This document shows positions 14,085 through 19,599 of a DNA stretch of 43,726 nt, one piece after another. The stretch is from an uncultured Pelagibacteraceae bacterium (GTDB lineage Bacteria > Pseudomonadota > Alphaproteobacteria > Pelagibacterales > Pelagibacteraceae). The position numbers were made by a program, and so were the translations under genes. The notes beneath the pieces were generated by a model. It had not been told where the DNA came from. It did no database searches and was given only the letters and a program-made list of their open reading frames with translations. Each line of letters starts with the position of its first letter. Positions within the stretch are counted from its first letter, which is position 1. Location: NCBI GenBank assembly GCA_902571525.1, contig CACGCL010000007.1, positions 1 to 43,726 on the forward strand, in the 5' to 3' direction.

Positions 14085-15626
14085 TTAAAAGAAGCCTAAT
14101 TTCTTTTCACTGTAAGACACGTGTAAGTTCTTCACTTGTCTGTAGTGGTTAAGCATCATTTTATGTGTTTCTCTTCCGATACCAGATTGTTTGTATCCAC
14201 CGAAAGCAGCATGAGCAGGATAAGCGTGATAACAGTTTGTCCAAACTCTACCAGCTTGTATTTCTCTACCCATTCTAAACGCACGATTACCATTTCTAGT
14301 CCATACTCCTGCCCCTAAACCATAAAGTGTATCATTAGCAATTTCTAATGCTTCTTTCTCATCTTTAAATTTAGTTACAGAAACAACAGGTCCAAAAATT
14401 TCTTCTTGGAATATTCTCATGTCGTTTTTACCTTCGAAAATAGTTGGCTCAATGTAGTTTCCTTTTTCTAAACCACTATTGATTTTTGCAACATTTCCTC
14501 CACATAGAACTTTGGCACCTTCTTTCTTACCTAAGTCTAGATAAGATTTGATTTTTTCCATTTGTTCCAATGAAGCTTGTGCTCCAATCATTGTTTCCAT
14601 TTTTAAAGGATTGTCTTGTTTTACAGCTTTAGTTCTTGCAACAGCTCTTTCCATGAACTTATCATAGATAGACTCTTGTACTAATGCTCTACTTGGACAA
14701 GTACAAACTTCTCCTTGGTTTAATGTAAACATTGCAAAACCTTCTAAACACTTATCAAAGAAATCGTCATCTTTATCCATAACGTCTTCGAAATAAATGT
14801 TAGGAGATTTACCACCTAATTCTAAAGTAATTGGAATTAAGTTTTGTGATGCATATTGCATAATCAATCTACCAGTTGTCGTTTCACCAGTGAAAGCAAC
14901 TTTTCTAACTCTTTTAGAAGATGCTAAAGGTTTACCAGCTTCTAAACCAAAACCGCTCACGATGTTAAGTACGCCTGGTGGTAAAAGATCACCAATAAGT
15001 TCCATCATTACCATGATTGATGCAGGAGTTTGCTCTGCAGGTTTTAAAACCACACAGTTACCAGCAGCTAATGCTGGAGCAAGTTTCCATGTTGCCATCA
15101 ATAATGGGAAGTTCCATGGTATAATCTGACCAACTACACCTAAAGGCTCAGGTATATGGTAAGAATATTCACCATTACTTATCTCAGAGATCGAACCTTC
15201 TTCAGCTCTTATTACGCTTGCGAAATATCTCCAGTGGTCTACCACTAAAGGTAAGTCAGCAGCCATACATTCTCTGATTGGCTTACCGTTATCTAAACAT
15301 TCAGCAACAGCAAGTGTGCTAAGATTTTTTTCAAGCACATCTGCAACTTTAAGCAAAATGTTTGATCTTTCAGTAATTGATGTTTTTCCCCATGATGGGA
15401 AAGCTGCGTGTGCTGCATCTAATGCTGCGTCCACGTCTTTATCATTTGATCTTGCAATTGAACAGATCTTCTCATTTGAAATAGGAGAAGTATTATCAAA
15501 ATACTTACCTGATTTAGGCTCTACAAATTTACCGTTAATGTAGTTTCCATATTTTTCTTTAAATGGAAATTTAACCTTTAAATGAGATGTATCTAGAACA
15601 GAAGACAATTTCATTTCTGCACTCAT
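14085..15626 (-). CDS. aldB: Aldehyde dehydrogenase, AldB/ExaC type
   Basis: A 513-residue NAD(P)-dependent aldehyde dehydrogenase, probably oxidising acetaldehyde or another short aldehyde to the acid. It has P-W-N-F-P (170-174), F-T-G-E-T-T-T-G-R (245-253), Glu269 in L-E-L-G-G-K-S-P and Cys308 in [11 protein letters not shown]. The N-Q-G-E-V-C-T-C form and the C-terminal H-K-M-M-L-N-H-Y...L-G-F-F ending are typical of AldB/ExaC/AcoD enzymes. GGAGG stands six bases before the ATG, an unusually strong ribosome binding site here. The DUF779 gene follows, a familiar pair. Confidence 0.9.
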
Positions 15627-15747: not shown

Positions 15748-16608
15748 TTAGGTTGAGATGTTTTTTCTTGTTGCTAAATAAACTCCAAAAGATGCGACTA
15801 AAAAACCAAATATATCTAAATTAGATAATTCCTCATTTAAAAATACCCAAGCAATTATAGCTGTGGTCGCTGGAATTAAAAAAAATATTGTTACTGTTTT
15901 GCTCGCTGAATTATTTTTTATTAGATACATTAAAATTGTGAAAGCTCCAAAAGATACTAAAAATATTTGATGACTCATTGCTATTAAAAAAGTTTTATTA
16001 AAATTGATAAAAGCCTCTGCAAAAAAAATAACAATTATAATATGAAACATACATCCTCCAGCAGCTTGGTACATGTTGCTAACCGACAAAGGAGCATTTC
16101 CACCAAATTTCTTTTGTAACAGAGTTGCAGACGTAATGGATGCCAAAGCTATAAATGATGCTATTATGCCAACTAAAGGTAAATCCCCTCCTAAATCAAA
16201 ACCTAAGACAATTGCTGCCCCACTAAAGCCAAGTAGAACACCTACCCACTGTCTCCATCCGACTTTTTCATTTAATATTGGTCCAGCTAATGCGTTGGTG
16301 AGTATTGGTTGCATTGTTACTATAAGTGCAGTTATTCCCGTAGGAACTCCAAGTGAAACTGAATAAAAAACTCCTCCTAAATAAATTCCATGAAACAACA
16401 CTCCACTTAAAATTGAATGGGATAATTCTTTTTTTTCTAAAGTTAATGAAATTTTTTTGTATTTTGCATAAATCAAAAACCCAATTGCAACTAAAAGAAA
16501 TCTGAAAGCTAATGCAGAAAATGGGTCACTATTATCAACTATTGGTTTAGTTGTTACAAAAGCAGATGACCATAAAAAAATAAATGCAAAAGATAAACTA
16601 TTTTTCAT
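15748..16608 (-). CDS. EamA/DMT family transporter (first of two)
   Basis: A 286-residue inner-membrane protein with about ten hydrophobic helices in two repeats, each starting with an EamA-type pattern (F-I-F-L-W-S-S-A-F-V and L-P-L-V-G-I-I-A-S-F). Conserved P-I-L-T-N-A in the middle and L-N-E-E-L-S-N near the end are family marks. These carriers export amino acids, purines or metabolites, or take up nucleotide sugars; the substrate is unknown. It lies 59 bases after another EamA gene on the same strand, and that spacer contains a parS-like palindrome. Confidence 0.87.
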   Translation of the reverse strand: MKNSLSFAFIFLWSSAFVTTKPIVDNSDPFSALAFRFLLVAIGFLIYAKYKKISLTLEKKELSHSILSGVLFHGIYLGGVFYSVSLGVPTGITALIVTMQPILTNALAGPILNEKVGWRQWVGVLLGFSGAAIVLGFDLGGDLPLVGIIASFIALASITSATLLQKKFGGNAPLSVSNMYQAAGGCMFHIIIVIFFAEAFINFNKTFLIAMSHQIFLVSFGAFTILMYLIKNNSASKTVTIFFLIPATTAIIAWVFLNEELSNLDIFGFLVASFGVYLATRKNIST

Positions 16609-16624
16609 TTTGATAAGCTATATT

Positions 16625-16640
16625 AATTTCACGTGAAACC
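16625..16640. other. parS-like palindrome (possible ParB binding site)
   Basis: TTTCACGTGAAA at 16627-16638 is a perfect 12-bp palindrome. The surrounding 14-mer ATTTCACGTGAAAC differs at one place from the near-universal parS core GTTTCACGTGAAAC. It lies between two genes, not inside one, which favours a real protein-binding site. No parA or parB gene is in the window. Confidence 0.6.
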
Positions 16641-16667
16641 ACAGAAAAACCTAAAGTTGAATTTAAT

Positions 16668-17573
16668 TCAGACAGACTTTTTTTTTAACTTTGGAATTTT
16701 TGAAGTTGATTTTTTTACTAAAAATATTCCAAGAATTATTGCAACTAATGCTATAATTACTTTTTCAGTAATCACCTCTTTTAAAAAAACATATCCTAAG
16801 ATAACTCCAAATATAGGTATCAGGTAAGCAACCTGTGACTGAAATACTAAACCATTTTCCTTTAAAACTTTAAATCTTAAGACCCAGGCTAATCCTGTAG
16901 TAATTAGGCCTAGATATATTATTGAAACAAGAGAATTTATTGATGGACTATAATTCCAGGGCTTTTCTAAAAAGAAACAAATAGGCAAGAGTATTAATGT
17001 CGCCCAAATCAAAATTGAAGCCGTTACATTTTCGTTTTTCTTTTTACTTATTTTTAAGGTTAAAATTCCACCTACAACGTAACCTAAGGAACCCATTAAA
17101 ATACAAAGAGCTGAAAAAATATTGTTTTCATTGATTAAAAAATCATCAGAAAATAAATAAACTATTCCTGCAAATCCAACTGAAACACCGATAATCTTTA
17201 AGAGATTTATTTTTTCATTTTTGATAAAAATATGGGCTAAGAGCGTTGATGTTAGCGGAGAAGTGGACATGAGTATCGCTGCTAAATTACTTTGTATTTG
17301 TTTAACTCCATAAGCAATTAAAAAAAATGGTAAAACCAAATTTACAAATCCAATTGATGCAAACCAAAACCAATCTTTTGAAAATGCTTCAATTTTTATA
17401 TTTTTAATATTGCACAAAATAAGTAACGGAATGGACCCCAAGAAAACTCTTATAAAAGCAATCGTTACTGGTCCAAAAGATTCTGTTGCAATTTTTATAT
17501 TGAAAAATGCTGAAGCCCAGATCACTGCTAAAAAAACAAGTAAACAATAATCGGTAACTGTTGGCTGTCTCAT
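16668..17573 (-). CDS. EamA/DMT family transporter (second of two)
   Basis: A 301-residue ten-helix transporter of the same superfamily as its neighbour but not close to it in sequence. Marks are V-I-W-A-S-A-F-F-N-I-K-I-A in helix 1, F-I-R-V-F-L-G at helix 2, M-S-T-S-P-L-T-S-T-L-L-A-H near the middle and F-L-K-E-V-I-T-E before the last helix, with a lysine-rich cytoplasmic tail. The substrate is unknown. Its ATG overlaps the stop of the upstream ybaK-like gene as ATGA (17570-17573), so the two are co-translated. Confidence 0.88.
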   Translation of the reverse strand: MRQPTVTDYCLLVFLAVIWASAFFNIKIATESFGPVTIAFIRVFLGSIPLLILCNIKNIKIEAFSKDWFWFASIGFVNLVLPFFLIAYGVKQIQSNLAAILMSTSPLTSTLLAHIFIKNEKINLLKIIGVSVGFAGIVYLFSDDFLINENNIFSALCILMGSLGYVVGGILTLKISKKKNENVTASILIWATLILLPICFFLEKPWNYSPSINSLVSIIYLGLITTGLAWVLRFKVLKENGLVFQSQVAYLIPIFGVILGYVFLKEVITEKVIIALVAIILGIFLVKKSTSKIPKLKKKSV

Positions 17574-18192: not shown

Positions 18193-19599
18193 ATGAGCGC
18201 AAATAACGTACTAAAAAAAATTAAAGATAAACAAATCGAATACGTAGATTTAAGATTTACAGATCCAAGAGGTAAACTTCAGCACGTTACTATGGACGCA
18301 AGCATGGTTGACGGCGATATGCTGAATGATGGAATATTTTTTGATGGTTCTTCAATTGCTGGTTGGAAAGCAATTAACGAGTCTGATATGATATTAAAAC
18401 CTGATTTAGATAAAGCCATTGTAGACCCTTTTACCTCACATAATACTTTAAATTTATTTTGTGACATTTTAGATGCAGTAAAAAAAGATCCTTATGAAAG
18501 AGATCCAAGAGGTACGGCAAAAAAGGCTGAAGCTTATTTAAAAAAATCGGGAATAGGTGATAAAGCATTTTTTGGTCCAGAGGCGGAATTTTTTGTATTT
18601 GACGATGTTAAATTTAAAAATGATATGAACGAGACAGGATTCAAGATAGATAGCACGGAGGGTCCTTATAATACTGGTAAAGATTACGATAACGGTAACA
18701 TGGGTCACAGACCAGGTATTAAAGGAGGATATTTTCCAGTACCACCAGTAGACAGTGCGCAAGATATGAGGAGTGAATATTTAAAAGCTATGAGAGATAT
18801 GGGAATTAAAGTTGAAAAACATCACCATGAAGTAGCGCCAAGTCAGCACGAATTAGGAATGTATTTTGGTACACTTGTAGATCAAGCAGATAACTTACAA
18901 TTATACAAATATGCTGTACATATGGTGTCACACTCTTTTGGCAAGACGGCAACATTTATGCCTAAGCCTGTAAAAGGTGATAATGGTTCAGGAATGCACG
19001 TTCACCAATCTATATGGAAAGGTAGCACTGCATTATTTTCTGGAGATAAATATGCTGGTTTGTCTGATCTTGCCCTAAACTATATAGGTGGAATTTTAAA
19101 ACATGCAAAAGCTATTAATGCTTTTTCGAATGCTACAACAAATAGTTACAAACGATTAATTCCAGGATTTGAAGCTCCAGTATTGTTAGCTTACTCAGCT
19201 AGAAACAGATCTGCTTCTTGTAGAATACCAATTACTTTAAGTAAAAAGGCTGCAAGATGTGAAGTACGTTTTGGCGATGCTGCAGGTAATCCATATTTAA
19301 CCTTTGCTGCAATGTTGATGGCAGGATTAGATGGTATTAAAAATAAAATTAATCCTGGTAAATCATTTGATAAAGATCTTTATGCATTATCAGAAGAGGA
19401 AGTAAGCAAAATTCCAACTGTCTGTGGTTCTTTAAGAGAAGCTATGGAAAGTTTAGATAAAGATAGAAAATTCTTAACACAGGGTGGTGTTTTTACAGAC
19501 GACCAAATTGATGCATATATTTCATTGAAGATGGAAGAAGTTCATAATTTTGAACACACTCCACATCCGATAGAATTTGAGATGTATTACAGCTGTTAA
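18193..19599 (+). CDS. glnA: Glutamine synthetase, type I
   Basis: A 468-residue GlnA that makes glutamine from glutamate, ammonia and ATP in the cytoplasm and is the main ammonia-assimilating enzyme. Visible motifs are F-F-D-G-S-S-I-A-G-W (beta-grasp domain), F-F-G-P-E-A-E-F-F-V-F and G-S-G-M-H-V-H-Q-S for metals and ATP, N-R-S-A-S-C-R-I-P, and Tyr397 in D-L-Y-A-L-S-E-E-E, the position that is adenylylated in Escherichia coli. The length equals the enteric enzyme. It stands alone on the plus strand, with no glnB neighbour, and ends six bases from the sufA stop. Confidence 0.97.
   Translation: MSANNVLKKIKDKQIEYVDLRFTDPRGKLQHVTMDASMVDGDMLNDGIFFDGSSIAGWKAINESDMILKPDLDKAIVDPFTSHNTLNLFCDILDAVKKDPYERDPRGTAKKAEAYLKKSGIGDKAFFGPEAEFFVFDDVKFKNDMNETGFKIDSTEGPYNTGKDYDNGNMGHRPGIKGGYFPVPPVDSAQDMRSEYLKAMRDMGIKVEKHHHEVAPSQHELGMYFGTLVDQADNLQLYKYAVHMVSHSFGKTATFMPKPVKGDNGSGMHVHQSIWKGSTALFSGDKYAGLSDLALNYIGGILKHAKAINAFSNATTNSYKRLIPGFEAPVLLAYSARNRSASCRIPITLSKKAARCEVRFGDAAGNPYLTFAAMLMAGLDGIKNKINPGKSFDKDLYALSEEEVSKIPTVCGSLREAMESLDKDRKFLTQGGVFTDDQIDAYISLKMEEVHNFEHTPHPIEFEMYYSC

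Follow-up and report, generated by a model that had tools for sequence, protein, structure and literature searches.

The window, a stretch of 43,726 nucleotides, carries two genes for EamA-family transporters in succession on the minus strand: EamA2 upstream (16668..17573; PF00892, 129.6 bits) and EamA1 downstream (15748..16608; Pfam PF00892, 90.8 bits). The spacer between them comprises 59 bases (16609-16667) and contains a parS-type palindrome. At 16626-16639 the minus strand reads GTTTCACGTGAAAT and the plus strand ATTTCACGTGAAAC, which equals parS (GTTTCACGTGAAAC) at 13 of 14 bases, with one mismatch. The parS consensus used for this comparison agrees with the literature. The inner 12-mer, TTTCACGTGAAA, is the inverted repeat of the parS core. 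The first-pass annotation had described a parS-like site between two transporter genes, with a perfect 12-mer palindrome lying in a 59-base spacer and not in a gene, and all of this was borne out. The EamA1 start codon follows 17 bases downstream of the palindrome. An A+T-rich stretch on the minus strand, TAATATAGC (16617..16625), lies between the two; it is similar in the EamA1 cases, is missing from the aligned methyltransferase cases described below, and is possibly a -10 region. A sigma-70 promoter scan of 16550-16750 found no consensus promoter. Three genes served as neighbourhood markers: EamA2, a glutamine synthetase gene on the plus strand (18193..19599) and an aldehyde dehydrogenase gene on the minus strand (14085..15626), the last of which is divergent from the methyltransferase gene in genome G017.

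Scanned against parS with up to three mismatches, the window yields three matches where 1.53 are expected, and 21 of 100 shuffles reach three, so that only the one-mismatch match is notable. Its class was followed with the pattern GTTTCACGTGAAAD, where D stands for A, G or T; the pattern is built to pass over the perfect 14-mer and any copy in which both outer bases differ. Reckoned from the reversed control of this pattern (three hits in 399 genomes of about 1 Mb), chance would supply about 3e-4 such sites per 43.7 kb, in line with the initial judgement that the palindrome is unlikely by chance in 43 kb.

Immediately upstream of the palindrome, also on the minus strand, is a 24-bp box A (16640..16663, AATTCAACTTTAGGTTTTTCTGTG; consensus TTTTCAACTTnAGGTTTTTCTGTG). 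Between clades, box A is 0.68-0.85 identical, versus 0.34-0.41 for the DNA 30-60 bp upstream, a level close to that of unrelated A+T-rich sequence. Thirteen bases of the palindrome are invariant across 40 aligned elements, but most of these were gathered with a search pattern that fixes those bases and part of box A (GTTTT..T.TGG). The invariant box A columns in 16 aligned sequences are TTCAA, A, GTTTT, T and TGG; TTCAA and further columns lie outside the search pattern, and the 16 upstream regions of EamA1 orthologues described below were gathered pattern-free. The conserved unit is about 38 bp, box A plus palindrome: the 14-mer named at first is part of it and not the whole.

The genome that carries the window (923,953 bases in 31 contigs, 78% complete) has a single perfect parS, at C3:110983, inside rsmG and beside mnmG, parA and parB. 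The window is on another contig, C7, and the site lies away from parAB, as first noted. A better parS near oriC, together with a lack of ParB binding here, had been named in advance as a point against the original reading, and the perfect site in this genome's own rsmG, next to parA and parB, is a better origin-side site of that kind. The neighbouring parB encodes a protein of 280 aa (L006:1015-1857), residues 6-220 of which align with Caulobacter ParB (6t1f, E 1.7e-56). It scores 189.7 bits with TIGR00180 and 213.8 bits with the Noc model TIGR04285, under the cut-off of 315 for that model. The protein keeps the GKSR and GHA motifs and the equivalents of R173 and G201 (positions counted from G170-K171-S172 of PMC7383237), the residues that set parS specificity according to that paper. 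A lysine replaces R204, which contacts DNA in Caulobacter. The same paper describes the Noc-binding site as differing from parS by A at half-site position 1 and C at position 6 (PMC7383237); the palindrome in the window has A at position 6 in both halves and A at position 1 in one half only, and does not belong to that class. A long open reading frame with an SMC_N match was found in 8 of 8 genomes examined.

In an even sample of the genus, 399 genomes in all, the perfect parS 14-mer occurs exactly once in 302 and twice in none. It is missing from 97, including 7 of the 57 genomes that are at least 90% complete. A smaller set of 151 genomes was scanned with one mismatch allowed; 129 of these have a site, among them all 22 near-complete ones. 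All 32 origin-side loci inspected are at rsmG. Counting sites in the genome and its relatives, a check proposed at the outset, found GTTTCACGTGAAAD in 87 of the 399 genomes, one copy each; 30 of these copies are in the neighbourhood of the window's site (hereafter distal). The other 57 are origin-side, 55 in mnmG and two in rsmG, and none is elsewhere. The general parS of the genus is therefore the origin-side one (302/399, against 30/399 with a distal site), so the palindrome at 16626-16639 is hardly the usual centromere; of the earlier phrase 'part of the centromere', what stands is a conserved parS-type site.

The 55 mnmG copies lie in the 3' part of the gene. Every one of these loci also includes rsmG, and wherever the spacing to the rsmG parS was measured it is 332 or 335 bp. 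This part of mnmG, with its second origin-side parS-type site, is variable (L195-L262, L007-L036), and the mnmG genes inspected that do not have the site encode other residues at that position. Genomes G059 and G274 have no perfect 14-mer and carry GTTTCACGTGAAAT in rsmG, so the origin side too uses the variant. Because the variant occurs in rsmG of these two genomes and in mnmG of 55, we predict that the ParB of the group accepts GTTTCACGTGAAAT. Origin-side copies with both outer bases changed exist as well (L010, L031 and L035 in mnmG, and L008 at the same 332-bp distance), and the outer bases of parS therefore seem relaxed in this group, here called SAR11. Two further genomes without perfect parS have one-mismatch sites: GTTTCACGTGGAAC in G154 (C1:404275) and, in rsmG of G069 (L275), GTTCCACGTGAAAC, which reads VPRET.

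Among the 30 distal copies, 20 are upstream of EamA1, four are upstream of a homocysteine S-methyltransferase gene and six are in the coding tail of coxG, a gene whose identity is supported by Pfam. The three classes belong to one neighbourhood. Its order is suf genes, glutamine synthetase and EamA2, after which comes a segment of varying content: EamA1, the methyltransferase gene, a TauE-like gene, a DUF1244 gene and coxG beside a molybdopterin-dependent dehydrogenase gene can all occur there. EamA2, present in 110 of the 151 genomes, shares a contig with 19 of the 20 EamA1-class sites; in the twentieth case, G249, EamA1 and EamA2 are on separate contigs, each near the contig start. In nine of the ten remaining distal cases the contig also carries one or more other genes of the neighbourhood; in the tenth, G306, the piece is too short to tell. 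Had the coxG sites arisen independently, the odds of their falling within about 5 kb on either side are put, roughly, at about 1% for a 1.1-Mb genome.

The neighbourhood lies far from the origin-side parS, whereas a parS is typically, though not by definition, origin-proximal. In a close relative, G399 (966,325-base contig), the rsmG parS is at 384,917 and the site at 789,700, or 404,783 bp apart. G012 is a single contig of 1,343,202 bases without the site; taken as a circle, it places EamA2 408.7 kb from parS. Its cumulative GC skew, from 20 sampled windows, is lowest at 1,230 kb, beside parS (1,254.7 kb), and highest near 618 kb. EamA2 and parS are 480 kb apart in G081. Given these three distances and the G012 skew, the distal locus is likely mid-arm. 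Mapping the site against parB and oriC, as the first-pass annotation had suggested, thus gave a distance from parS, but the GC skew of G399 does not settle oriC: it is noisy (half of the contig was sampled), has its minimum near 582 kb with parS at 385 kb, and was rejected as proof of the origin. In G012, parS is flanked by EamA2 on one side, at 409 kb (C1:320197), and by EamA1 on the other, at 415 kb (C1:839348), whereas in the window the two genes adjoin; this layout suggests a rearrangement symmetric about the origin.

Conservation was assessed from EamA1 orthologues collected by protein alone, which were found in 301 of the 399 genomes. Among the 18 best-scoring, the element is present in 16 of 16 readable upstream regions; the remaining two loci lie at a contig end, where they are truncated or shifted, and one of these, in G249, has the site. 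The statement is made by score rank, as one orthologue (L164) at 73% identity is without the site. The initial proposal that the site should be kept at this locus in close relatives was thus confirmed, within a few clades. The loci ranked 19-30 (12 loci, 69-73% identity) are without the element, and so are 18 further orthologues, about 130 bp upstream being inspected in each of these 30. The element recurs in an additional EamA1 group (G033, G041) whose identity is about 67%. Present in the readable best-ranked loci, absent from the next and present again in the G033/G041 group, it is clade-bound, with losses or gains. In an EamA2 tree of 43 chosen rows, the 16 rows from the window's own clade and its sister clade group together, and every one of them has the site. 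The coxG, methyltransferase and third EamA1 groups are placed elsewhere, separated from this clade by siteless rows, so that gains and losses are not firmly countable. Among 48 relatives that carry the element are Pelagibacteraceae and Candidatus Pelagibacter. An exact search of a viral collection with the extended pattern found no match, and phage origin of the element was rejected. Judged by its sequence and distribution, the palindrome at 16626-16639 is a lineage-specific second parS-type site.

This record bears on the possibility that the palindrome is a mere accident of composition. One-mismatch sites in which an inner base differs are found in other genes as well. Thirteen regions of this sort were taken from the matches listed; 12 show no match to the window's proteins and one is rsmG, and these sites were rejected as kin of the distal site. 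Six background one-mismatch hits fall in what we take to be carB-like genes. Retention of the site in all 16 readable upstream regions, next to DNA that has drifted to 0.34-0.41 identity, and the gathering of 30 distal copies in one neighbourhood with none elsewhere make an accident the least credible of the explanations considered, with a probability close to nil.

The element has a marked orientation. Of 49 copies of the extended pattern, 47 point towards a long frame on their own strand whose start codon follows after 3-22 bases; the remaining two are truncated where the sequence piece ends. Scored with a weight matrix built from the EamA1 groups, only just before each palindrome and against 319,360 genomic positions, box A was detected in all five tested cases of the methyltransferase class (p no higher than 1.3e-4). 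Half of the six coxG cases score at p 2e-4, 2e-4 and 1e-3, in related genes that are not independent, and the other three are weak (p 0.01-0.04). These values call for caution, as the top-scoring position anywhere in a siteless coxG gene reached p 9e-5. The origin-side sites tested, two in mnmG and the rsmG sites of six genomes, are without box A (p 0.07-0.95).

Such features would suit an operator through which some other transcription factor regulates EamA1 and the gene for homocysteine S-methyltransferase, the likeness to parS being convergent. An operator would account for the conservation of about 38 bp rather than 14, for the start codons at 3-22 bases and for the occurrence at two kinds of metabolic gene. 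It accommodates the coxG copies poorly. These six of the 30 distal sites (L211, L218, L220, L227, L256 and L261) are in coding sequence, and in G112 and G125 the copy is about 450 bp upstream of a DUF1244-EamA1 gene pair and not beside its start. The coxG site encodes ISRET in all six, amid residues that differ, and its Arg codon, CGT, accounts for seven of the 247 Arg codons in 16 ORFs of the window. The tail itself is a variable stretch after the CoxG domain, in which the position of ISRET relative to an SELI motif varies by about five residues. The only other exact places of the 87 hits in 399 genomes are mnmG and rsmG, beside parS. ParB would, moreover, probably bind a foreign operator of parS-core sequence in any case. 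We regard an operator of this kind as improbable, though it is the most serious of the competing explanations.

The methyltransferase gene, which belongs to methionine metabolism, also raised the suspicion of a riboswitch-like RNA leader of EamA1 and the methyltransferase gene, and the direction of the element and its place beside start codons would agree with one. At permissive thresholds, however, Rfam had no match at the site in the window or at eight loci, with a few weak matches elsewhere, and no covariance model of SAM-II, SAM-V or another Rfam riboswitch matched. The consensus fold has an energy of -0.28 kcal/mol and no covarying pair, single folds have z values of -0.62, -0.15 and 0.13, and in coxG the element and box A lie on the strand opposite to the gene. 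SAM-V and other riboswitches were rejected on the Rfam and folding results, and a structured leader of any sort is very improbable.

We therefore favour, at a probability of about two in three, reading 16626-16639 as a conserved parS-type site, a second place on the chromosome where ParB is likely loaded. Behind this reading stand the sequence, the confinement of such sites in the sampled genomes to the origin-side genes and a single distal neighbourhood, their presence in three gene settings and the parS-type specificity residues of ParB. The coxG copies, and a core shared with origin-side genes alone, speak for ParB. Set against this are the presence of distal sites in only 30 of 399 genomes, and box A and the start-codon direction, which fit a gene-control element better than a bare parS; the lack of box A at the origin-side sites and the lysine at R204 also count on that side, as do the 30 siteless EamA1 orthologues and the harm done by a mid-arm parS pair in Caulobacter (PMC5815017).

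By analogy with known ParB proteins, a CTP-bound dimer that recognises the palindrome would then form a closed clamp and slide a few kilobases. The locus would gain a loading point for ParB, perhaps also for SMC, and a second, small ParB domain would form there, in which neighbouring transporter and metabolic genes might be dampened. Box A may bind a second factor, or may be the promoter region that ParB shuts. Silencing of EamA1 by ParB is plausible because ParB at parS3 and parS4 of P. aeruginosa represses the adjoining genes (PMC5521831). For Caulobacter, PMC5815017 reports that an ectopic parS pair is more harmful mid-arm than at two positions near ori or ter, which makes a site kept mid-arm surprising.

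More speculatively, the unit of box A and parS could be a position-bound second centromere, held mid-arm by selection on the place in the chromosome and not on the gene. The 38-bp composite would then have arisen anew in each setting, ahead of the transporter gene, ahead of the methyltransferase gene and within coxG, and ParB with a box-A partner might mark or loop the arm. This is possible, though we consider it doubtful.

SAR11 bacteria have very small genomes, with at most one perfect parS in each of those sampled, against which a second parS-type site kept at a probable mid-arm locus is surprising. If ParB binds there, the locus would offer a natural test of what an origin-distant parS does, whether arm positioning, SMC loading or gene silencing. 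Literature matches that combine SAR11 or Pelagibacter with ParB or parS look incidental, in a search that covered few subscription papers.

The element resembles three known systems in part. With Caulobacter ParABS and the SAR11 rsmG parS it shares 13 of the 14 bases of GTTTCACGTGAAAC and a cognate ParB with the R173 and G201 equivalents; it differs in lying 404,783 bp away in G399, in its box A and in its restriction to 30 of 399 genomes. Bacillus subtilis reportedly has origin-distal parS sites (Breier and Grossman are said to have described them in 2007), and these too are ParB-type sites far from oriC, whereas the small SAR11 genomes were found to have no more than one such distal site each, which is confined to a single neighbourhood, occurs there in three gene settings and is paired with a partner box. 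The parS3 and parS4 sites of P. aeruginosa, which lie beside a promoter where ParB lowers expression, are the model for the EamA1 case, but those sites are near oriC.
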